Source: a virus. From it: a stretch of 53,385 nt of DNA. Position numbers and translations under genes: made by a program. Below are positions 35,824-52,268 of this stretch, one piece after another (within the stretch, counting starts at the first letter, position 1; the number at the start of each line of letters is the position of its first letter). Where the stretch lies: positions 1 to 53,385 of the IMG/VR virus record IMGVR_UViG_3300034272_002450. One strand, written 5' to 3'. The notes under the pieces were generated by a model that was not told the DNA's origin, did no database searches, and saw only the letters and a list, made by a program, of their open reading frames with translations.

Positions 35824-36669
35824 TTAGAATAACAAATCTCTATTGTTATAACTGTATTGTTTTGCTTCTTTAAAGTGTAGGGTGTGTCCCAAATCCTGAA
35901 TCATTTTTCTACCCATTTCAATCCCATTGAACACGTCATCAATAACGACATATTCATTTGGAGTGTGATAATCATAATACCCAATCGAGAAGTTAATACA
36001 AGAGAAGTCAAATTTACCTCTTAAGGCATAAACGTCAGTATATGGGTGAACCATGTATCTCATATCTTCATTAACCATTCCTTCGGTTAGGACTTTATCA
36101 ATTTTTTGGAAGAAGTCTGAATCTCTATCAAACAAAACTTGACCAAAACATTTTTCAGTAATCATCCAGTTTTCAGGGGCATCAAATTGGATTCCGTATC
36201 CAACATTTTCAAAAAACTTTGGGTCGGCAACTCTTGAGCCATGACATCCTGTTTCTTCAGATACAAAAAATGCTGCTTTTAGATATGGTAATTCTTTTAA
36301 TAATGTTAAACAAGCAAATACACCACATTTGTCATCACCACCAATACCAGTTGGTTTCCCCTCATTGTTATAGGCTTTGAGGGATGGTTTTAACACGTCT
36401 TGTGCGTTTGGTAACATCATTTCTTTGATGTTAATTGTATCAATATTGTGAACGGTGTCTGTGTGAGAAATTACACACGGGAAATAAAAATCTTCAGGTA
36501 GTTCTGAATTTTCTTGTTTTGTTGCATAGACATTCATTTTGTCATCAACATAATGGTCTATATTGTTTTCAGTCAACCAATTAACCAAGAATTCCACCAT
36601 TTGGTGTTCTTGATAGGTTTTTGTGGGTACACTTAAAACTTCTTTTAGAAGTGCTATTTTTTCTGTCAT
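35824..36669 (-). CDS. M20-family peptidase (PepT-like)
   Basis: 281 aa. CVISHTDTVH (H69, D71), GIGGDDKCG (D112/D113 region), VSEETGCHGS (E138/E139), QFDAPEN (D163) and YDYHTPNEYVV provide all di-zinc and catalytic positions of M20 exopeptidases such as peptidase T. Shorter than PepT (about 410 aa), so the lid domain is reduced. An aminopeptidase is odd cargo for a phage; it may recycle peptides made by Clp-type breakdown. Host-type promoter with the -7 box 4 nt before the ATG. Confidence 0.82.
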   Translation of the reverse strand: MTEKIALLKEVLSVPTKTYQEHQMVEFLVNWLTENNIDHYVDDKMNVYATKQENSELPEDFYFPCVISHTDTVHNIDTINIKEMMLPNAQDVLKPSLKAYNNEGKPTGIGGDDKCGVFACLTLLKELPYLKAAFFVSEETGCHGSRVADPKFFENVGYGIQFDAPENWMITEKCFGQVLFDRDSDFFQKIDKVLTEGMVNEDMRYMVHPYTDVYALRGKFDFSCINFSIGYYDYHTPNEYVVIDDVFNGIEMGRKMIQDLGHTLHFKEAKQYSYNNRDLLF

Positions 36670-38243: not shown

Positions 38244-38636
38244 ATGGGAGTAGATTGTAATATATGTAGCAACAAGTGTTTCGGGGTACCAGGGTACCAC
38301 GGAAGTTGTTGCACCATAGAGGACCGTGATTATATCATAGGTTCTCATCACGACACCCAAGAATTTATTGACTCTCTATCTAATAAATTTGGTAGAGAAG
38401 TTTCCTATAATGAAGTGTTTGTTGATTACGAAGAGGGAAAAACTTTATTCCCAAACAAATCAACTTGGCAAAATCCAAATAGCTATCCCGCACTTCGAGT
38501 TGATTTTTACAACCCAAGATTCCCATGTATTTTTTATAACACAAAAATTAAGGCGTGTTCTGTATACGACATACGTCCTAAAACCTGTAGAGAATACGAG
38601 TGTGATTATTTAAAGGAGCACACAACCAACATTTAA
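38244..38636 (+). CDS. YkgJ-like zinc/iron-chelating Cys cluster protein
   Basis: 130 aa. CNICSNKCFGVPGYHGSCC near the start and RFPCIFYNTKIKACSVYDIR-PKTCREYECD near the end follow the CxxC...PC.F....C.IY..RP..CR...C pattern of the YkgJ family, which binds metal through these cysteines. It begins 11 nt after the tmRNA and may share its transcript. Role in phages unknown. Confidence 0.78.
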   Translation: MGVDCNICSNKCFGVPGYHGSCCTIEDRDYIIGSHHDTQEFIDSLSNKFGREVSYNEVFVDYEEGKTLFPNKSTWQNPNSYPALRVDFYNPRFPCIFYNTKIKACSVYDIRPKTCREYECDYLKEHTTNI

Positions 38637-38711
38637 TAATTTCATAATACATTATTAATACACTTACAGACATACTTTCATAGTTATTGGGGAACTAATT
38701 TAAATAATTTT

Positions 38712-41189
38712 ATGAAGTATTTTCTTTTATTTTTATTGCTACTTCCAACATTAGCAATTGGACAAATAACCGTAAACGGTTTAACAAAATCAAAATCCGA
38801 AAACATATATTTTTCACATATAAGTTTTAAACACTCAGACGGTGCCACATATTCAACAATTTCAAATGAAAACGCGGAATATAAATTAAACCTTAAATCT
38901 GGTTTATATACAATAAAAGCGTCATACATTGGATATAAAGAATTCACAAAAGAATTAAATGTAACGTCCGACTTAACCTTTGATATAATATTTGAAGAAA
39001 CTGAAACTCAGTTGTCAGAAGTTGTTGTAAGGGCGGCTCCACAAAAAGTAACCGAAGCATCAATTGTTAGGTCAATACGAAATAATAATGTCGTATCCGA
39101 TGGACTATCAATTGAATTTATTAAGAAAACTCCTGACAGAAACGTTGGTGACGCACTTAAAAGAGTTGGTGGGGTAACCATCCAAAACGATAAATTTGTA
39201 TTGGTAAGAGGTTTGGCAGACCGTTATAATTCTGCATTATTAAATAAAACCCCACTACCGTCAACTGAACCAGATAAAAGAGCGTTTTCTTTTGACATAA
39301 TCCCAACTTCTTTAATTGACAACATTATTGTTGCTAAATCATCGTCAGCAAATTTGCCTGGTGATTGGAGTGGGGGATTAGTTCAAATAACAACAAAAGA
39401 AGTTTCTGATAAATTTTTTAATCTGTCATTGGGAAGTGGTTGGGGTTCGGTTTCAACCTTTAGAGATTTTAAGTTAGTTCAAGCTACCGATTTCCCTTCC
39501 ACATTCCCTTCAACTTATAGATACCGTATATCATCAAACGGAGATAAAAGGGCGTATACTAAATTAATTGGTAATCCATCAGTTGAACAGACTAAATCAA
39601 CCCCTAATTTAAATGGAGGATTATCATTTGGTCACGCAAATGGAAAATGGAATTCATTATTTAGTTCTACAATTAGAAATTCATATACACTAAACAATAT
39701 TGAAAGAAAAGATTATCAATCATCAACAGAGTTAGCTTATGACTATAAAGATGTTTTATTTACAAAAAGATTTTCAACAAACAGTTTGTTTAATTTAACT
39801 TACTTGGGTGAAAATAGATACAGTTGGAAAACTTTAGTAAACTACCAAATTGAAGATTCATATCTAAACCGTAATGGCGATAATTTTGATAACGTTCAGA
39901 ATGTTTTAACAACGTCTTCGAATCATGTTAACAACGTTGTAATTAGTTCTCAATTTGACGGTAAAATTAAAACATTAAATTTTAATTTAGGATACAATTA
40001 TACGTTTAGAGAACAACCAGATTATAGGATTAATCCAATCACAAAATCATTAGGTGTTAACGAACCTTATGCAACTGCGTGGAGAGACACATATCGTTTT
40101 TGGAGTGTAATGGATGAAAACTCATTTAACGGTAACATAAATAAAGAACTCAATAATATTAAAATTGGTGGTGGGTACATTAAAAGGTTTAGAGGTTTTA
40201 ACGCTAGAATATTTCGTTATCTATCAACAGACATGATGGATGAAATAACAAACAACACCGACAGATATACTGCCGATTTTGATTTGGGGTCTCTTTACTC
40301 GATGTATGAAAACGAATTTGGTAAATGGAAAATAAATGGTGGAATAAGAGGTGAATATAATTTATTTAATGTTCAAACCGCAGATTTTAGTGGTACGGAA
40401 GTGAATGTTAACAGAAAATATTTAGACCTTTTACCTTCGTTAAATCTCTCATACAACGAAGAAAAAACAAAGTATAGATTCTCAGTAAGTAAAACATTGG
40501 CAAGACCTGAATTCAGAGAAGTTGCTAATTTTGCTTATTATGATTTTGTAAGAAATGCTCAAATATTGGGAAATTCAAAGTTAGAAAAATCTGACATATA
40601 TAATTTAGACCTTAAATACGAATGGTACCCAAAGACAGGTGAAAACATTTCGGTTTCTTTATTTGGTAAAAATTTCATTAAACCAATTGAACAAATTGTT
40701 GCAGACGGCTCAGTTCCTTCAAATCTTCTTTTAACTTACACAAACCCTAATTCAGCAATCTTATACGGTATTGAATTTGAAGTTCGTAAAAAGATAAGTG
40801 ATTGGTTTGATGTTTATACAAATGCTTCGGTAATGAATTCAGAAGTAGAAGTTAATGGTATCAAAAGACAATTACAGGGTCAATCAAACTATGTTTTAAA
40901 CGGAGGAGTAAACATACATAAAAAGAAAAACACCCTTAATTTAACTTATAATAGAGTTGGTGATAGAATATCATCTGTAGGGTTTCAGGGGTATCCTGAT
41001 ATATTCGAAAATAGTAGAGATGTATTAGACATTACATTCTTACATAAACTTTCAAAAGGAGAAATAAAATTGGCAATAGGTGATGTATTTGCTCAACCAT
41101 CAATTTATTACCAAAAGGTACAAAACCGAAATCTAATAAAAATAAACAATGAGCAAACAATTTCATTAACATTAAATCTAACATTATGA
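38712..41189 (+). CDS. TonB-dependent outer-membrane receptor
   Basis: 825 aa. Signal peptide MKYFLLFLLLLPTLAIG; residues about 20-95 are a carboxypeptidase-regulatory-like beta domain (YIGYKEFTKELNV), typical of Bacteroidetes receptors; the plug spans about 100-235 (EVVVRAAPQKVTEASIVRSI, VGDALKRVGGVTIQNDKFVL-VRGLADRY, SANLPGDWSGGLVQITTKE); the rest is a 22-strand-type barrel with alternating aromatic residues, ending SLTLNLTL. Such receptors import a bulky or scarce nutrient using the TonB motor. It overlaps the downstream lipoprotein by 4 nt. This is host-type cargo, very unusual next to T4-like genes. Confidence 0.95.
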   Translation: MKYFLLFLLLLPTLAIGQITVNGLTKSKSENIYFSHISFKHSDGATYSTISNENAEYKLNLKSGLYTIKASYIGYKEFTKELNVTSDLTFDIIFEETETQLSEVVVRAAPQKVTEASIVRSIRNNNVVSDGLSIEFIKKTPDRNVGDALKRVGGVTIQNDKFVLVRGLADRYNSALLNKTPLPSTEPDKRAFSFDIIPTSLIDNIIVAKSSSANLPGDWSGGLVQITTKEVSDKFFNLSLGSGWGSVSTFRDFKLVQATDFPSTFPSTYRYRISSNGDKRAYTKLIGNPSVEQTKSTPNLNGGLSFGHANGKWNSLFSSTIRNSYTLNNIERKDYQSSTELAYDYKDVLFTKRFSTNSLFNLTYLGENRYSWKTLVNYQIEDSYLNRNGDNFDNVQNVLTTSSNHVNNVVISSQFDGKIKTLNFNLGYNYTFREQPDYRINPITKSLGVNEPYATAWRDTYRFWSVMDENSFNGNINKELNNIKIGGGYIKRFRGFNARIFRYLSTDMMDEITNNTDRYTADFDLGSLYSMYENEFGKWKINGGIRGEYNLFNVQTADFSGTEVNVNRKYLDLLPSLNLSYNEEKTKYRFSVSKTLARPEFREVANFAYYDFVRNAQILGNSKLEKSDIYNLDLKYEWYPKTGENISVSLFGKNFIKPIEQIVADGSVPSNLLLTYTNPNSAILYGIEFEVRKKISDWFDVYTNASVMNSEVEVNGIKRQLQGQSNYVLNGGVNIHKKKNTLNLTYNRVGDRISSVGFQGYPDIFENSRDVLDITFLHKLSKGEIKLAIGDVFAQPSIYYQKVQNRNLIKINNEQTISLTLNLTL

Positions 41190-42391
41190 AAAAATTATTA
41201 ATTGCTATTTTAGCATTAGGATTATTGAGTTGCGAAAAAGATTTAGGTGGTGGAGAAGATGGACCAATTAACATTCCAACTTCAACAACACTTTCAGGTA
41301 ACATCAATACAACAACAACTTTAACTGCAGATAAAGTTTGGACACTAAAAGGTTATGTATACGTAACCGACGGAGCAAAACTTATTATTCAACCAGGTAC
41401 GACAATCGTTTCTGACATTGCAGAAAAAGGAGCATTATGTATTGAAAGAGGTGCTCAAATTATTGCAGAAGGAACCGTAACAAAACCAATTATTTTTACA
41501 TCTGGTAGAGCGGTTGGAGAAAAATCACCTGGTGATTGGGGTGGTATTGTAATATTGGGTAGAGCAAAAACCAATAGAACATCAGAACCAACAATCGAAG
41601 GTGGTATTGGCAGACCGTTTGGTGGAACAAACGATTTAGATAATAGCGGTATTCTTCGTTATGTAAGAATTGAATACGCTGGTATCGCGGCAATGCCGAA
41701 TTCTGAAATAAATGCATTGACATTAGGTGGTGTTGGTAGTGGAACAATAATTGAATATGTTCAAACAATTTACGCTAACGATGATGCATTTGAATTCTTT
41801 GGAGGAACTGTATCACCAAGAAACTTATACGCGTTTGCGACCGCAGATGATGATTACGATTTTGACTTTGGATATAACGGAACCGTAACAAACAGTGTTT
41901 CAAAAAGAGACCCTCAATTTGTAGACAACGGAGATGCAGGAAATGGTGTAGAATGTGATAACGATGGAACAGGTTCATCATCACAACCTTTTACACATCC
42001 TAAATTAAGTGGTATGATTTTAATTGGACCGTTTGATGTGTCATCACTATCAAACCATAATTTAGGGTTAAGATGGAGACGTGCAACACAGTTTACAATA
42101 ACAAACTCAAAGATATTAGGTTATCAAAAAGGTTCGTTTTCTATTGAAAGTAATGAAACCGCACAATCATATAGAGATGGGGTATCTAAATTTCAAAATA
42201 ATGAGGTTCAATCGTTTGACCCATTATTAAATTTTAAATCAACCTCAACAGTGTTTACCGCATTACAAATGAAAGAAAAATCGTTAAGTGAAGGTAACCT
42301 TGAGAAAAATTATACGAGAGCAGAATTAGAAATACTTTCTAAACCAACATGGACTAATGGTTGGACAAGATTTCCATCAAGAGGAAATTAA
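41186..42391 (+). CDS. Outer-membrane lipoprotein partner of the TonB receptor
   Basis: 401 aa. MKKLLIAILALGLLSC is a lipobox signal with Cys16. The body, with GYVYVTDGAKLIIQPGTTIV, GDWGGIVILGRAKTN, DNSGILRYVRIEYAG, INALTLGGVGSGTIIEYVQ and ANDDAFEFFGGTV, is a right-handed beta-helix type known from Bacteroidetes lipoproteins that are encoded beside TonB receptors (often carrying a misleading 'multidrug transporter' label). The ATGA overlap with the receptor gene points to a surface complex. I recall such pairs being linked to phosphate limitation, but this is not shown here. Ends at a strong terminator. Confidence 0.88.
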   Translation: MKKLLIAILALGLLSCEKDLGGGEDGPINIPTSTTLSGNINTTTTLTADKVWTLKGYVYVTDGAKLIIQPGTTIVSDIAEKGALCIERGAQIIAEGTVTKPIIFTSGRAVGEKSPGDWGGIVILGRAKTNRTSEPTIEGGIGRPFGGTNDLDNSGILRYVRIEYAGIAAMPNSEINALTLGGVGSGTIIEYVQTIYANDDAFEFFGGTVSPRNLYAFATADDDYDFDFGYNGTVTNSVSKRDPQFVDNGDAGNGVECDNDGTGSSSQPFTHPKLSGMILIGPFDVSSLSNHNLGLRWRRATQFTITNSKILGYQKGSFSIESNETAQSYRDGVSKFQNNEVQSFDPLLNFKSTSTVFTALQMKEKSLSEGNLEKNYTRAELEILSKPTWTNGWTRFPSRGN

Positions 42392-42412: not shown

Positions 42413-42442
42413 AAGCCCTCACCTATGGTGGGGGTTTTTTAT
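42413..42442 (+). terminator. Terminator of the TonB receptor operon
   Basis: CCCTCACC / GGTGGGGG stem with loop TAT and a T run (TTTTTTATTTT). Confidence 0.88.
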
Positions 42443-45054: not shown

Positions 45055-45678
45055 ATGAAAGTTATATTTTTAGACCATGACGGAGTAATATGCTTATCTA
45101 CTGAGTGGGGTGGTCGCCATAAAAAACAAAAGGAATGGGGCGGACGAAAATTGTCTATGACAAATAGTGAAGTCCCTTTAGATTGTAGATTTGATAACTT
45201 CAATAAAAAGGCAATCAAAATCTTAAATGAAATCTTAGAAGAAACAGGAGCGGAAATCGTTGTGTCGTCTGATTGGAAAAGATGGGCAAACGTTGAGGAG
45301 ATGGGTGAATATTATGAGTCTCAGGGAATCAAAAAGAAACCTATTGCATTTACCCCTAATTTGGGTCAATGTACTTGGTACATTGATGCATATCCTGCTG
45401 GTTTTATGTGGTCTCGAGCATGGGATTTGGAACAAACTAGAGTTATTGAAATTAAACAATACCTACATGACCATCCCGAGATTACTCATTGGGTTTCTAT
45501 TGATGATTTGAGAATGGGTAAAGAAGGTCTTGACTATAGTATACCTTACGAGCATGAGTGGGGATTAGATAATTTTGTTGAGACTCCGAAAAGTACTGAG
45601 GGTATCAAACAAACAGGTATTAAAGAAAAAATTATAAAATTTTTAAATAGTGAAATACAGGACAAGAAGATTAATTAA
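45055..45678 (+). CDS. HAD-like phosphatase, RNA-repair HAD type
   Basis: 207 aa. FLDHDGVIC with D7 and D9 (motif I), VVSSDWKRW (motif II plus Lys) and HWVSIDDLRM (motif III with DD) give a complete HAD active site. The sequence layout, with CRFDNFNKKAIKILNEILEE after motif I, is that of the HAD domain associated with RNA repair proteins. It may remove a phosphate from a nucleotide or RNA end. One base after the preceding stop; the next gene starts inside its 3' end. Confidence 0.82.
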   Translation: MKVIFLDHDGVICLSTEWGGRHKKQKEWGGRKLSMTNSEVPLDCRFDNFNKKAIKILNEILEETGAEIVVSSDWKRWANVEEMGEYYESQGIKKKPIAFTPNLGQCTWYIDAYPAGFMWSRAWDLEQTRVIEIKQYLHDHPEITHWVSIDDLRMGKEGLDYSIPYEHEWGLDNFVETPKSTEGIKQTGIKEKIIKFLNSEIQDKKIN

Positions 45679-46024
45679 ACCAGAAGATTTAAATCCAAGA
45701 GGAACCCTATTTGGTGGCAGGGTTCTTCAATGGATTGATGAAGAGTCTGCAATTTATGCAATATGCCAATTGAACAGTTCGAACATTGTAACCAAAGCAA
45801 TGTCTGAAATAAATTTTGTGTCTACAGCAAAAGTTGGTGATGTTATTGAATTTGGATTAGATTTAGTTAAAATTGGTACTACATCCATTACAATAGCTTG
45901 TGATGTTAGAAATAAAAAAACAAAAGATTCTATTATTAAAATTGATGAGATTGTATTTGTGTTATTAGACGGAAACGGAAAACCTTACCCTCATGGAAAA
46001 ACAAGAAAAACTGACGACAATTGA
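45650..46024 (+). CDS. Hotdog-fold acyl-CoA thioesterase-like protein
   Basis: 124 aa from GTG at 45650, 29 nt inside the HAD gene. NPRGTLFGGRVLQWIDEESA is the N..G.LFGG..L.W.DE motif of YciA/ACOT-type thioesterases with the catalytic Asp; MSEINFVSTAKVGDVIEFGL and ACDVRNKK complete the fold. Expected to cleave acyl-CoA in the cytoplasm. An unusual phage cargo that could shift fatty-acid pools during membrane change. Single hotdog domain of normal length. Confidence 0.85.
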   Translation: MKYRTRRLIKPEDLNPRGTLFGGRVLQWIDEESAIYAICQLNSSNIVTKAMSEINFVSTAKVGDVIEFGLDLVKIGTTSITIACDVRNKKTKDSIIKIDEIVFVLLDGNGKPYPHGKTRKTDDN

Positions 46025-49536: not shown

Positions 49537-49600
49537 TATGAAGAATTATCTTATGTGTCAATTATTTTAAAAGTTTTTTTTTGTTAAAATTTTGTTATGC

Positions 49601-49685
49601 GGAGAGTGTTGGGCTCGAACCAACGCGGCTGTTACACCCTACCTGTTTAGCAAACAGGCCCCTTCACCAACTTGGGTAACCCTCC
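49601..49685 (-). tRNA. tRNA-Ser (GCT)
   Basis: 85 nt with the long variable arm expected for Ser. Anticodon arm CCTGT-TTGCTAA-ACAGG, T arm with GTTCGAGC, acceptor GGAGGGT/ACTCTCC. No CCA is encoded. Confidence 0.92.
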
Positions 49686-50024
49686 TTATTGTAATAATTG
49701 TATTAAATAATAAGATAATTTATATCCTGTAAACGCACCAAGAGCTGATGGTAATGGGAAAACAATCATTTTACCTAAATCTGTAACGTATTTTGGTCTG
49801 TTAACAATCTTACCCATATAAAAGTAATATGTTAAGTACCCTAATAACACCGCTAAATCCGTTCTTGTTGCAATGAATACAACAATAGTCGCACCAATAA
49901 AACCAAAAGTAAAATTATCTCTAACTCCTTCCCAAATTTCAAATGTGGTAGCCTCTTTGTACTCTTTAACAATTTTTTTAAACTTTGTTCTGTTTGTCTG
50001 TTTTTTTTTAATTTGTGATTCCAT
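49686..50024 (-). CDS. Membrane protein, 112 aa
   Basis: Basic N-terminus MESQIKKKQTNRTKFKKIVK, then a region with FGFIGATIVVFIATRTDLAV and LLGYLTYYFYMGKIV and a C-terminal ALGAFTGYKLSYYLIQLL, so two to three membrane helices. It fills the gap between two tRNA genes exactly, its stop touching tRNA-Ser. No family recognised. Confidence 0.72.
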   Translation of the reverse strand: MESQIKKKQTNRTKFKKIVKEYKEATTFEIWEGVRDNFTFGFIGATIVVFIATRTDLAVLLGYLTYYFYMGKIVNRPKYVTDLGKMIVFPLPSALGAFTGYKLSYYLIQLLQ

Positions 50025-50025
50025 G

Positions 50026-50099
50026 TTGGAATAGATGGATTCGAACCATCGACATCTACCGTATCAGGATAGCGCTCTAACCAACTGAGCTATATTCCA
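50026..50099 (-). tRNA. tRNA-Ile (GAT)
   Basis: 74 nt. Anticodon arm CTATC-CTGATAC-GGTAG, D arm GCTCAGTTGGTTAGAGC, T arm GGTTCGAATCC, acceptor TGGAATA/TATTCCA. It lies 1 nt before the start codon of the 112-aa gene. Confidence 0.93.
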
Positions 50100-50104
50100 A
50101 TGTG

Positions 50105-50274
50105 CTGTAAGGGAAGGAGTCGAACCTTCAAGAGGAGATTCAATTGATAACACAACGCTTGCAAGCTGGTGGTCTACCCCATATTATCAATCTATTTCTT
50201 TGTCCCCGCCCCCGAGACAGGAGGGTGCGTATGCCAAGGTCATAACTGAGACAACCTAATTTCGCCACCTTACA
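50105..50274 (-). ncRNA. tRNA-like element with a large internal insertion
   Basis: Both ends are tRNA-like: 5' TGTAAGG (50268-50274) pairs perfectly with 3' CCTTACA (50106-50112), and a perfect T arm GAAGG-TTCGACT-CCTTC precedes the latter. The start TGTAAGGTGGCGAAATT is like tRNA-Leu. But 170 nt separate the ends, and the middle contains a 5-bp stem with loop CTGTCTC and an ATTGATAA/TTATCAAT inverted repeat. No standard anticodon arm could be placed. It may be an intron-bearing tRNA, an interrupted tRNA pseudogene or a new stable RNA. Confidence 0.45.
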
Positions 50275-50279
50275 ATTTG

Positions 50280-50366
50280 CGGAGGAACAGGGATTCGAAC
50301 CCCAGATACCCTTTCGAGTATGCCAGTTTTCAAGACTGGTGCAATCAACCGCTCTGCCATTCCTCC
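50280..50366 (-). tRNA. tRNA-Ser (TGA)
   Basis: 87 nt with long variable arm. Anticodon arm CCAGT-CTTGAAA-ACTGG, acceptor GGAGGAA/TTCCTCC, discriminator G. Confidence 0.93.
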
Positions 50367-50370
50367 AAAT

Positions 50371-50470
50371 AAAAGTGTTTTGGTCAACCACTCGCTACCC
50401 ACCGCAGTATGACGATTCCCCCTGTGGTCATCGTACTTACGCCTAAGCCTTGTCCGTTGTAAACACTTTT
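50371..50470 (-). ncRNA. Candidate stable RNA bounded by a 10-bp stem
   Basis: AAAAGTGTTT (50371-50380) and AAACACTTTT (50461-50470) are perfect complements and enclose 80 nt with inner pairings (ATGAC/GTCAT). It lies between tRNA-Ser and tRNA-His, with no reading frame. T4 carries two stable non-tRNA species in its tRNA cluster; this could be an analogue. Confidence 0.45.
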
Positions 50471-50471
50471 G

Positions 50472-50545
50472 GGTGACTAACGGGAATCGAACCCGTGACA
50501 ACTTGAACCACAATCAAGCGCTCTACCTACTGAGCTATAGACACC
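50472..50545 (-). tRNA. tRNA-His (GTG)
   Basis: 74 nt. Anticodon arm CTTGA-TTGTGGT-TCAAG. The extra G(-1) and C73 that HisRS needs are both encoded. One T-T mismatch in the acceptor stem. Confidence 0.92.
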
Positions 50546-50550
50546 ATATG

Positions 50551-50620
50551 TTGCGTGTATGAGGTTCGAACTCACTTGACCTTCCTTATGAGAGAAAGTT
50601 CTTTCCCACTAAGCCACGCA
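50551..50620 (-). tRNA. tRNA-Met-type (CAT), shortened
   Basis: Only 70 nt. Acceptor TGCGTG/CACGCA and a good T arm (GTGAG-TTCGAAC-CTCAT) are present; the CAT anticodon lies in CTCATAA. About three bases are missing between acceptor and D arm. CAT could be elongator Met, fMet or Ile (with modified C34). Confidence 0.75.
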
Positions 50621-50626
50621 GTTTAG

Positions 50627-50698
50627 TGGTTTTATTAGGACTCGAACCCAAACTCCGAAATCCGTAGTTTCGTGTGCTATCCATTACACCATAAAACC
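50627..50698 (-). tRNA. tRNA-Arg (ACG)
   Basis: 72 nt. Anticodon arm CGAAA-CTACGGA-TTTCG, acceptor GGTTTTA/TAAAACC, T loop TTCGAGT. Confidence 0.92.
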
Positions 50699-50702
50699 GT
50701 TG

Positions 50703-50773
50703 TTGTCCCTCAGGGATTCGAACCCCAACTGGATGGACCAAAACCACCTGTACTACCGTTATACTAAAGGACA
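50703..50773 (-). tRNA. tRNA-Gln (TTG)
   Basis: 71 nt. Anticodon arm GGTGG-TTTTGGT-CCATC, acceptor TGTCCTT/AGGGACA, T arm GGGGTTCGAATCC. Confidence 0.92.
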
Positions 50774-50781
50774 CTTTAGTG

Positions 50782-50861
50782 TGGGAGTGGAGGGATTCGA
50801 ACCCCCAATGTCGACGACCACAGATTTACAGTCTGCTAAGCAACCGTTGCTCAACACTCCC
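50782..50861 (-). tRNA. tRNA-Tyr (GTA)
   Basis: 80 nt with an extended variable arm as expected for bacterial Tyr. Anticodon arm GCAGA-CTGTAAA-TCTGT, acceptor GGGAGTG/CACTCCC. Confidence 0.93.
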
Positions 50862-50863
50862 AA

Positions 50864-51046
50864 GTTAGGAAAGGAGAAGATGGTCGAGTGGACATCTCCT
50901 TTTACGATTGGCATTACTCAGGTGTATTTCTCCCAACTCCGATGATACCGACCAAAATACACTCTCATGTCATAGGTACCACCATTCCCCAATCAACCTA
51001 TAAAACGATAATAGAATGTCCCAGCCGTCTCCTTCTCTTATCTAAC
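50864..51046 (-). ncRNA. Candidate structured RNA in a 233-nt gap of the tRNA array
   Basis: The ends pair (GTTAG 50864-50868 with CTAAC 51042-51046; AAGGAGA 50871-50877 with TCTCCTT 51028-51034) and GTGTATTT (50922-50929) pairs with AAATACAC (50955-50962). AAGGAGA can also pair locally with TCTCCTT at 50895-50901, so two folds compete. No convincing reading frame is present in 50862-51094. Confidence 0.45.
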
Positions 51047-51094
51047 ATACACTAACAGCTAAATACGGCTTGACTGATTATACTGTATGTTTTG

Positions 51095-51168
51095 CACGGG
51101 TGGAGAGGTTCGAACTCCCGACAACTGGTTTTGGAGACCAGTACTCTACCAAACTGAGCTACACCCGC
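51095..51168 (-). tRNA. tRNA-Trp (CCA)
   Basis: 74 nt. Anticodon arm CTGGT-CTCCAAA-ACCAG, acceptor GCGGGTG/CACCCGT, discriminator G. Confidence 0.93.
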
Positions 51169-51173
51169 TTATA

Positions 51174-51416
51174 TTACCTATACTTCCTGATAATCTTCAT
51201 TATCTCTCCGATATCTGTAAGTTCCATCTTTTGTCCGACACGGATTGGATAGAATGCCACGGTAAATCCGTGGTTTCCACAAAAACGTTCGGTTACTCTT
51301 TTTCCATTAACTTTTTCAAGATAAATCCATGGAATGTTACCTGCGAATTCACATTTGATTCCCAGTTTGTCCATTCTTCTTCTGAAATCGTTTAATACTC
51401 TTGTGTCTGTTTCCAT
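51174..51416 (-). CDS. Hypothetical protein, 80 aa
   Basis: METDTRVLNDFRRRMDKLGI, KCEFAGNIPWIYLEKVNGKR and YPIRVGQKMELTDIGEIMKI: a compact alpha/beta protein filling the gap between tRNA-Trp and tRNA-Cys. The GNIPWIYLEKVNGK stretch looks conserved from memory of other T4-like phages, but no function is attached. Confidence 0.75.
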   Translation of the reverse strand: METDTRVLNDFRRRMDKLGIKCEFAGNIPWIYLEKVNGKRVTERFCGNHGFTVAFYPIRVGQKMELTDIGEIMKIIRKYR

Positions 51417-51430
51417 AAGTTTATTTTTTG

Positions 51431-51502
51431 AGGTCGAACCCAGAATCGAACTGGGGTAATTAGTTTTGCAGACTAACGCCTAAGCCGCTCGGCCACCCGA
51501 CC
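51431..51502 (-). tRNA. tRNA-Cys (GCA)
   Basis: 72 nt. Anticodon arm TTAGT-CTGCAAA-ACTAA, acceptor GGTCGGG/TTCGACC with two G-T pairs, discriminator T. Confidence 0.92.
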
Positions 51503-51508
51503 ATTGTT

Positions 51509-51742
51509 TTATTTAACCATATCAAAGTTAATCATATTCTCTGACATTAATTCACGAAGTTCATTTCTTATTTCCTGATATGCGTCATACTTGTCCTGTG
51601 GTAAATCATCGGAAGCATATTTAGTTTTCGCTCTCAATGATTGGTCCAAATCCCAAAGTATTGACCACATCTTCATTCCTTTAGTTGCCAAGTCGAAATC
51701 TTGTTGGTCCTCAGGTAAATTAAATTCTAAAACAGCTTTCAT
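51509..51742 (-). CDS. Hypothetical phage protein, 77 aa
   Basis: ATG 51742 (MKAVLEFNLPEDQQDFDLAT) is preferred over a longer upstream frame that runs through the next gene. Helical, with KMWSILWDLDQSLRAKTKYA and YDAYQEIRNELRELMSENMI. I recall very similar small proteins (EFNLPED..DF..A..G....ILWDLDQ.LR...K) from several T4-like phages, without known function. Confidence 0.8.
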   Translation of the reverse strand: MKAVLEFNLPEDQQDFDLATKGMKMWSILWDLDQSLRAKTKYASDDLPQDKYDAYQEIRNELRELMSENMINFDMVK

Positions 51743-51920
51743 TTTTTTTCTCTTTATATTTTTTACATCTCTTTTTTGGTACTTCAACGTAATATGAACC
51801 CATAAACGATGAGAATACACCAACGTAGTTGGACCCAACCTCTTTTACATCATGGAGCACTGAACCCTCAAAAAGGTTGAAGAAGATGTCAGTACAGTCT
51901 TTTTTTGTTACAACTTTCAT
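51720..51920 (-). CDS. Hypothetical protein, 66 aa
   Basis: ATG 51920 (MKVVTKKDCTDIFFNLFEGS) follows a TATATTTG box by 4 nt. The protein has a beta-type centre (VGSNYVGVFSSFMGSYYVEV) and a Lys-rich end (PKKRCKKYKEKKNES). It overlaps the following gene start by 23 nt, so the two form a pair between tRNA-Lys and tRNA-Cys. Confidence 0.62.
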   Translation of the reverse strand: MKVVTKKDCTDIFFNLFEGSVLHDVKEVGSNYVGVFSSFMGSYYVEVPKKRCKKYKEKKNESCFRI

Positions 51921-51924
51921 ATTA

Positions 51925-51932
51925 CAAATATA
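51925..51932 (-). promoter_or_regulatory. Host-type -7 box TATATTTG
   Basis: Minus-strand TATATTTG ends 4 nt before the ATG at 51920; no clear -33 TTTG is seen at the usual distance. Confidence 0.4.
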
Positions 51933-51958
51933 CACAATTTTATTTAATTTTTCTAATG

Positions 51959-52032
51959 TGACCCCGCCGAGATTCGAACTCGGGACTCCTTCATTAAAAG
52001 TGAAGTGCTCTAGCCAACTGAGCTACGAAGTC
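51959..52032 (-). tRNA. tRNA-Lys (TTT)
   Basis: 74 nt. Anticodon arm CTTCA-CTTTTAA-TGAAG, acceptor GACTTCG/CGGGGTC. Confidence 0.93.
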
Positions 52033-52038
52033 TTATTG

Positions 52039-52111
52039 TGGTAACGGTCAGAATCGAACTGACGACACCTTGGTCTTCAGCCAAGTGCTCTACCAACTGA
52101 GCTACATCACC
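52039..52111 (-). tRNA. tRNA-Phe (GAA)
   Basis: 73 nt. Anticodon arm CTTGG-CTGAAGA-CCAAG, acceptor GGTGATG/CGTTACC. Confidence 0.93.
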
Positions 52112-52116
52112 ATTTG

Positions 52117-52189
52117 TAGTCCCTGTAGGAATCGAACCTACGACATCTTGCATGTAAAACAAGCGCTCTCCCAACTGAGCTAAAGGACT
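52117..52189 (-). tRNA. tRNA-Val (TAC)
   Basis: 73 nt. Anticodon arm CTTGT-TTTACAT-GCAAG, acceptor AGTCCTT/AGGGACT. Confidence 0.93.
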
Positions 52190-52194
52190 GTTTG

Positions 52195-52268
52195 TACTCC
52201 GTACGGGGCTCGAACCCGTAATCTTCACCGTGAAAGGGTGACGACTTAACCAATTTGTCCAACGGAGC
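52195..52268 (-). tRNA. tRNA-Glu (TTC)
   Basis: 74 nt, first gene of the array. Anticodon arm TCACC-CTTTCAC-GGTGA, acceptor GCTCCGT/ACGGAGT with a first G-T pair. Confidence 0.92.

Follow-up and report, generated by a model that had tools for sequence, protein, structure and literature searches.

Why would a virus of bacteria carry genes for two proteins of the bacterial outer membrane, a TonB-dependent receptor and a surface lipoprotein? The question is raised by IMG/VR virus record IMGVR_UViG_3300034272_002450, a stretch of 53,385 bases analysed here in full and referred to as the window, in which the two genes lie side by side among phage genes. We consider it likely that the pair is a Bacteroidota phosphorus-starvation outer-membrane importer, captured by large phages of T4 type and retained along with a promoter readable by the host. 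This interpretation draws on the gene pair itself, its phage context, its conservation, the corresponding host operon, and the architecture of the promoter; it would entail binding by PhoB, expression at low phosphate, a phosphorus-containing substrate, and a benefit to the phage. The features at issue are the following, with lengths in base pairs (bp) or nucleotides (nt):

38712-41189, plus strand: TonB-dependent receptor, 825 amino acids, in which the CarbopepD_reg_2, Plug and OMP_b-brl_3 domains each exceed the Pfam cut-off
41186-42391, plus strand: lipoprotein, 401 amino acids, its start joined to the receptor end by an ATGA overlap; lipobox LLSC, recognised by eye
38632-38664, plus strand: Pho-box-like array of three 11-bp units with TAAY at unit positions 3-6, the first unit overlapping the end of the open reading frame (ORF) at 38244-38636
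38681-38689, plus strand: -7-like element TAGTTATTG, 16 nt past the array and at phase 3 (modulo 11) to the repeats

An earlier note on this DNA had described a full-length receptor with an overlapping lipoprotein, and the three Pfam domains, the ATGA overlap, and the lipobox bear that description out. The plug (PF07715) and C-terminal barrel (PF14905), both above their cut-offs, place the larger protein among the TonB-dependent transporters (TBDTs). As judged by eye in an alignment of 20 homologues, its N-terminus is hydrophobic and resembles a signal peptide, and an LSEVVV-like stretch is presumably akin to a TonB box. Mean column identity in the receptor alignment (A1, 20 sequences) was 74%. 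Two forms of the receptor were found in phages, one of about 825 amino acids and the other of about 750, without the N-terminal CarbopepD_reg_2 region (e.g. loci L025, L029, L043, L055). The ratio of non-synonymous to synonymous substitution rates (dN/dS) ranged over 0.041-0.096 in the receptor gene and over 0.031-0.221 in the lipoprotein gene, in 12 pairwise comparisons in which several dS values were near or above saturation. Across 81 loci, the 147 stretches matched to either gene were all free of stops; in five loci the receptor lacks an ATG start, and TTG is the probable start. No PHROG family was found for either protein up to E 0.1, no NCBIfam receptor family reached its own cut-off, and a sequence search of the PDB with the receptor returned nothing at E ≤ 0.01. 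An AlphaFold2 model of the receptor was set aside (mean predicted local distance difference test score, pLDDT, 58.1; plug not resolved).

The lipoprotein starts 4 bases ahead of the receptor end in all 66 cases where both genes are present, the window (L001) included. Sequence searches yielded only a chance-level match in NCBIfam and two chance-level matches in the PDB at E ≤ 10. Its AlphaFold2 model (mean pLDDT 86.7) is predicted to form a right-handed beta-helix, both handedness and class being taken from structural matches; the best PDB matches in the structure search were for the most part tailspikes and enzymes with a beta-helix. No match reached E ≤ 0.001, and they speak to fold class only. 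A SusCD-type glycan importer was considered and rejected: no SusD-type partner (PF07980/PF14322) was found, the lipoprotein having no Pfam match up to E 0.1.

The closest bacterial copies found lie in a phosphate setting. A scan of genome contigs, which may miss relatives because it requires exact short peptides, found four bacterial loci: one in Aquirufa antheringensis (62%, full length), one in a Cytophagaceae metagenome-assembled genome (MAG; 70% over the part present), and two distant ones. The A. antheringensis locus (L082), of which a near-identical copy occurs in genome G063 (L124), encodes a receptor 62% and a lipoprotein 70% identical to those of the window. At E ≤ 1e-40 the lipoprotein was matched in 200 of 222 Aquirufa-family genomes, three at 70-72% and the others among the matches listed at 39-53%; at E ≤ 1e-80 the receptor was matched in 8 of 395 sampled genomes of the class (Aquirufa at 62%, others at 34-37%). 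In L082 and L124 a metalloenzyme/phosphodiesterase-superfamily gene comes after the pair, with a PHO4 (PiT) permease gene behind it (E 9e-88 in L082); the MAG contig (L083) likewise has a metalloenzyme/phosphodiesterase-superfamily gene after the pair. The Aquirufa promoter has the same phase as that of the phage, with 16 nt, measured by eye, from the last repeat unit to the -7 element, whereas the phage keeps only the two outer-membrane genes, has a 4-bp overlap in place of the 1-nt gap in Aquirufa, and differs in the -7 element.

A chromosomal pair with a phosphate response is known from Flavobacterium johnsoniae. According to the available part of PMC8115612, its TBDT gene Fjoh_0545 and lipoprotein gene Fjoh_0546 (IPR011050), located beside phoBR, were strongly induced by depletion of inorganic phosphate with listed fold changes of 8.02 and 9.91, and PlcP and a pf04101 glycosyltransferase were induced by phosphate depletion as well. 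This pair (PUSIV, with Fjoh_0546 as lipoprotein FII) resembles that of the phage in Pfam set and description, namely pf07715, pf13715 and pf14905 followed by a lipoprotein of beta-helix/pectin-lyase type in a phosphate context; the phage pair, in contrast, comes without the remaining phoBR cluster.

The promoter points the same way. Within the window, TAAYN7TAAYN7TAAY matched only at 38634-38659 (0.43 expected), which alone is not significant since 36 of 100 shuffled sequences also held a match; the 9-mer of the -7-like element is not rare either (8 matches against 6.3 expected). Across phages, a TAAY pair at 11 bp was present in 37 of 46 non-redundant receptor promoters, drawn from 74 upstream regions with 140 bases required upstream of the start and the window left out. 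Shuffles gave 3.0 ± 1.7 (maximum 8), other spacings from 6 to 19 gave 3-21 (highest, 21, at spacing 8), and the pair occurred at only 25 of 824 other phage gene starts. When a loose pattern was used to search the last 50 bases for a TAnTTATT-like element, 33 of the 34 phage promoters having both elements placed it at phase 3 (modulo 11) to the repeats; the exception, L059, is at phase 2, and three of the 33 carry a further repeat pair, which is at phase 0.

Bacterial receptor promoters share this arrangement. The bacterial loci include 20 regions taken from match lists, mostly top-ranked, and the promoter set is not a random sample; 19 of 21 loci were counted, L135 and L136 being left out because they begin at or near a contig end. 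All 19 had the 11-bp TAAY pair (shuffles 1.4 ± 1.1; other spacings from 6 to 19, 0-6), as did 28 of 213 other gene starts in the bacterial loci, among them those of PiT and PhoB-like genes. The -7 consensus of Bacteroidetes is TAnnTTTG, and in 13 of the 14 bacterial promoters having such an element it lies at phase 3 (modulo 11) to the repeats; over the 21 loci, phase 3 accounted for 36 partly overlapping matches and every other phase for 0-2. A whole-genome pattern scan of two Aquirufa genomes gave 8 sites in G051 and 10 in G063 (reversed control, 4 and 3), of which 4 and 5, respectively, were at phase 3, as counted by hand from the printed matches. In both genomes the phase-3 sites stand ahead of the receptor operon, the gene that diverges from the receptor, a second PiT gene followed by a phosphate-selective porin (PF07396, Porin_O_P), and a PlcP-like metallophosphoesterase (PF00149/PF12850) followed by a glycosyltransferase (PF13528/PF04101); G063 alone of the two has an extra one ahead of a TIGR03364 oxidoreductase. 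A phase-4 site lies ahead of the best PhoB-like regulator gene in both. Because the element also precedes the PiT-porin and PlcP-glycosyltransferase pairs, it is probably a Pho box, a candidate recognised from sequence. The Pho box of cyanobacteria likewise has a period of 11 bp. Its consensus there is PyTTAAPyPyT/A (PMC10976474, in the part available). The gene divergent from the Aquirufa receptor encodes a protein of 112 amino acids (L082, 5301-5639; L124, 11863-12201) and, having its own phase-3 repeat promoter, is a candidate for a new phosphate-response gene.

The pair is also widespread. As the earlier note had advised, relatives were sought in other phages: a receptor scan of IMG/VR found 99 (80 kept), a lipoprotein-alignment scan 134 (80 kept), and the pair recurs, deeply diverged, on no fewer than 80 viral contigs, near-duplicates among them. 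Recent capture of a host operon, one option in that note, is contradicted by this spread and divergence and by purifying selection. The window record encodes major head, portal and large terminase proteins, PhoH, and an ATP-dependent-protease (Clp-like) ATPase. In GenBank its terminase has low-identity matches in T4-type phages (best isolate, Flavobacterium phage vB_FspM_immuto, 25%); we use the label T4-type because of these matches and of the head and terminase families. PhoH, which had been offered as support for a phosphate role, is common in phages and was set aside as weak evidence. Tests for head and terminase genes covered 50 of the 80 viral records, taken from the largest contig downwards with most near-duplicates dropped. 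The major head family phrog_138 was found in 16, a terminase related to that of the window in 19, and either one in 20; the others may be fragments or carriers of other head or terminase versions. Relative to the window, the 19 terminases fall into lineage A (9, 81-100% identity) and lineage B (10, 27-37% over partial matches).

Receptors of lineage B are up to 84% identical to that of the window. In a tree of 68 receptors, built by a quick method with midpoint root and with the SH-like approximate likelihood ratio test (SH-aLRT) as sole support (51 phage receptors after truncated and identical ones were dropped, 17 of 21 bacterial), lineages A and B are interleaved, and the starred branches force at least three changes per label. 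The pair is inverted relative to its neighbours in four lineage A loci (L020, L021, L026, L027). Together, the interleaving, the high receptor identity across lineages, and the inversions argue that the cassette moves between phages. The same tree supplies the phylogeny with host receptors that the earlier note had called for: the Aquirufa receptors group with eight phage receptors, which form their sister clade (support 94), and this position implies repeated capture by phages or return of the pair to hosts. Grouping the 81 loci by at least three common flanking gene families gave context groups of 43, 17, 8, 4 and 3 loci plus six singles. In three members of context group C (L039, L042, L074), a ATACGTATAAGTGAA-like stretch stands upstream of the receptor in place of the 11-bp repeats and is possibly a different promoter.

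The lipoprotein varies between phages. Its residues 31-283 are 75-100% identical across phage versions, while residues from about 284 to 401 occur in at least two strongly different versions, both found in lineages A and B; single-linkage clustering at 72% of the part after residue 283 gave four clusters among 40 sequences (lowest pair identity 0.50). In this C-terminal part L008 is like the window and L009 unlike it, although the receptor of L009 is closest to that of L008.

Several points weigh against a phosphate-responsive importer. The 34 phage promoters are not independent tests, and the shuffles overstate independence, because the promoters share common descent; the repeat and -7 patterns, moreover, were picked after inspection of the sequences. 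The repeats are absent from 9 of the 46 phage promoters (L017, L023, L027, L039, L042, L043, L046, L050, L074), three of these belonging to context group C and three to lineage A, and 3 further promoters of the 46 have no -7-like element. The phage -7 element, TAnTTATTG, differs from the bacterial TAnnTTTG. The triple-repeat pattern occurred at 4 sites in each Aquirufa genome against 4 and 3 in the reversed control, and one site falls inside a ribosomal operon; in Aquirufa it is the position and phase of the repeat that are exceptional, and not the triple-repeat count. PhoB is the best-scoring family for the Aquirufa PhoB-like regulators and for the regulators adjoining the receptor in two distant genomes, yet all score below its cut-off. 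Around the distant bacterial homologues, the genes often have no link to phosphate (thiamine, prolyl-tRNA synthetase, RecG and ferrochelatase genes); the general rule of a phosphate neighbourhood was rejected, since it does not hold for many of these homologues. No PiT permease was found in any of 51 virus records, an absence that fits, without proving, a phage that supplies the outer-membrane step only and leaves the rest to its host. Finally, in the available parts of two papers, the F. johnsoniae OprP porin (pf07396) beside phoBR is listed as not induced (PMC8115612), and a warning is given that predictions of Pho boxes in phage genomes cannot be relied on (PMC10976474).

Under the phosphorus interpretation, the reconstructed order of events would be as follows: the pair was captured from Aquirufa-like or related hosts; in an infected cell short of phosphate, a PhoB-type regulator of the host would bind the array of 11-bp repeats (38632-38664), and the two genes would be expressed as a single operon. 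The surface-anchored beta-helix lipoprotein would bind or present a phosphorus-containing substrate, the receptor, presumably driven by the TonB of the host, would carry it into the periplasm, and host phosphatases and PiT would do the rest. What the phage would gain is phosphate for its DNA. In large viruses of Bacteroidota-type bacteria the pair recurs, behind what looks like the bacterial switch for phosphate shortage, and this suggests that the infected cell is made to collect phosphorus. We are doubtful of a more elaborate version, in which at least two distantly related T4-type lineages exchange a mobile cassette of host Pho-type promoter, importer, and beta-helix lipoprotein that, at the host's phosphate-starvation signal, remodels the infected cell's surface and feeds phage DNA synthesis, while swapped lipoprotein C-termini alter what rival phages bind.

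The earlier note had listed three options: nutrient uptake with phosphate as a possibility, exchange of surface receptors against rival phages, and the recent capture already dismissed. Nutrient uptake with phosphate is the one favoured by the Aquirufa PiT operon, the 11-bp promoter, and the F. johnsoniae response (PMC8115612, available part). Control of superinfection is its main rival because the last 120 or so residues of the lipoprotein occur in exchangeable versions. TonB receptors are, as is generally known, common receptors for phages, and the phage might coat the infected cell with versions of receptor and lipoprotein of no use to rival phages, or mask the receptor; the strongly different versions of the lipoprotein past residue 283, found in both lineages A and B while residues 31-283 are conserved, would suit such a role. 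A decoy would be expected to differ, whereas the receptor is conserved among phages, 62% identical to that of Aquirufa, and under purifying selection. Exclusion as the main role, which also leaves the phosphate-type promoter unexplained, thus appears improbable to us.

We find it quite improbable that the substrate is a carbohydrate (a SusC-like role) or other organic carbon, as suggested for the receptor of Mar_Mega_1 (PMC9723777, part available). The predicted beta-helix does resemble pectate-lyase and alginate-lyase folds, without significance, but in the Aquirufa operon the pair is accompanied by PiT and a phosphodiesterase-superfamily gene, no enzyme for carbohydrates was seen there, and the promoter is of phosphate type. 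Uptake of iron or siderophores, the classical TonB role, would draw on the general association of TonB receptors with it and on the CxxCxxCC ORF (38244-38636) just upstream, one bit under its cut-off; with that ORF present in so few loci (8/81), a host context of phosphate, and no NCBIfam receptor family at cut-off, an iron role is hardly credible. Equally hard to credit is a functionless passenger recently derived from a host operon, or a chimeric contig. The Aquirufa copies branch inside a phage-plus-Aquirufa clade and gene exchange with hosts therefore happens, but both junctions recur in other assemblies, dN/dS stays below 0.23, and none of the 147 gene stretches has a stop. Three other assembly accessions (L002, L003, L004) hold both flanks of the pair, with nearly all genes 97-100% identical and two flanking genes of L004 at only 85-88%; L008 and L009, with receptors at 83-84%, keep the genes to either side of the pair, and in L008 the ORF at 38244-38636 has no match. 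Because the junctions recur in other assemblies and in relatives, the assembly break that the earlier note had asked to be checked is excluded for practical purposes.

Phage genes for phosphorus and a TonB receptor in megaphages have been published before; what is new, as far as we found, is this pair with this promoter, which did not appear among the open-licence PMC papers listed by the searches. The earlier note had called a phage-encoded receptor exceptional, which is too strong: in 2021 a TonB receptor, named SusC, was reported in the megaphages Mar_Mega_1 and LR745206 and read as serving carbohydrate uptake (PMC9723777, part available). LR745206 resembles the window phage in having a lipoprotein of the same type next to its receptor, with receptor and lipoprotein only 27% and 38% identical to those of the window and the gene order reversed; the 11-bp repeat pair was not found just before its lipoprotein. 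This phage (LR745206.1) is 634 kb long, and its distant lipoprotein-receptor pair lies at 3575-7415 of L235. A distant receptor-lipoprotein pair also occurs in MT838075.1 and MT837092.1, short human faecal sequences deposited as 'Bacteriophage sp.'. The phosphorus genes named for phages encode phosphatases, binding proteins, transporters of the inner membrane, and regulators (available parts of PMC10987575 and PMC10976474); the main text of the 2024 survey, as available, does not contain 'TonB' (PMC10987575), and PMC10013915, in the part available, mentions TonB receptors only in a table of bacterial genes. Cyanophage pstS and other phage genes are under control of the host PhoB, whose binding was tested by gel shift (PMC10976474, part available). 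Like pstS, the window pair would be a phage phosphorus-uptake function behind a host-type Pho box, here a candidate; the pstS case concerns cyanobacteria, whereas the window pair concerns outer-membrane import in Bacteroidota.

If the interpretation is correct, the pair acts at the outer membrane, where Bacteroidota import large molecules, and provides a testable function for low-phosphate pairs of TBDT and lipoprotein. It also provides a candidate Bacteroidota Pho box, in which TAAY repeats every 11 bp keep a fixed phase to TAnnTTTG, and adds to the carbohydrate guess for the megaphage receptor a phosphorus hypothesis that is checkable in metatranscriptomes.

The surroundings of the pair in the window agree with the earlier note, which had placed it past the transfer-messenger RNA (tmRNA) among phage genes and ended by a terminator on what is a T4-type phage contig:

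37810-38232: tmRNA
38244-38636: small ORF between tmRNA and receptor, with a CxxCxxCC (iron- or zinc-chelating) match one bit under cut-off
42413-42437, plus strand: intrinsic-terminator-like stem-loop followed by a T-run

GC content is 0.333 in the window, 0.309 in the receptor gene, and 0.353 in the lipoprotein gene. Elsewhere in the window, the gene at 31888-32577 matches a PHROG galactose-3-O-sulfotransferase (E 1.5e-13), that at 35824-36669 encodes an M20-type peptidase, and that at 45650-46024 belongs to the 4HBT thioesterase family (E 1e-13). Thirteen tRNA genes, the tmRNA not counted, occupy 49599-52268.

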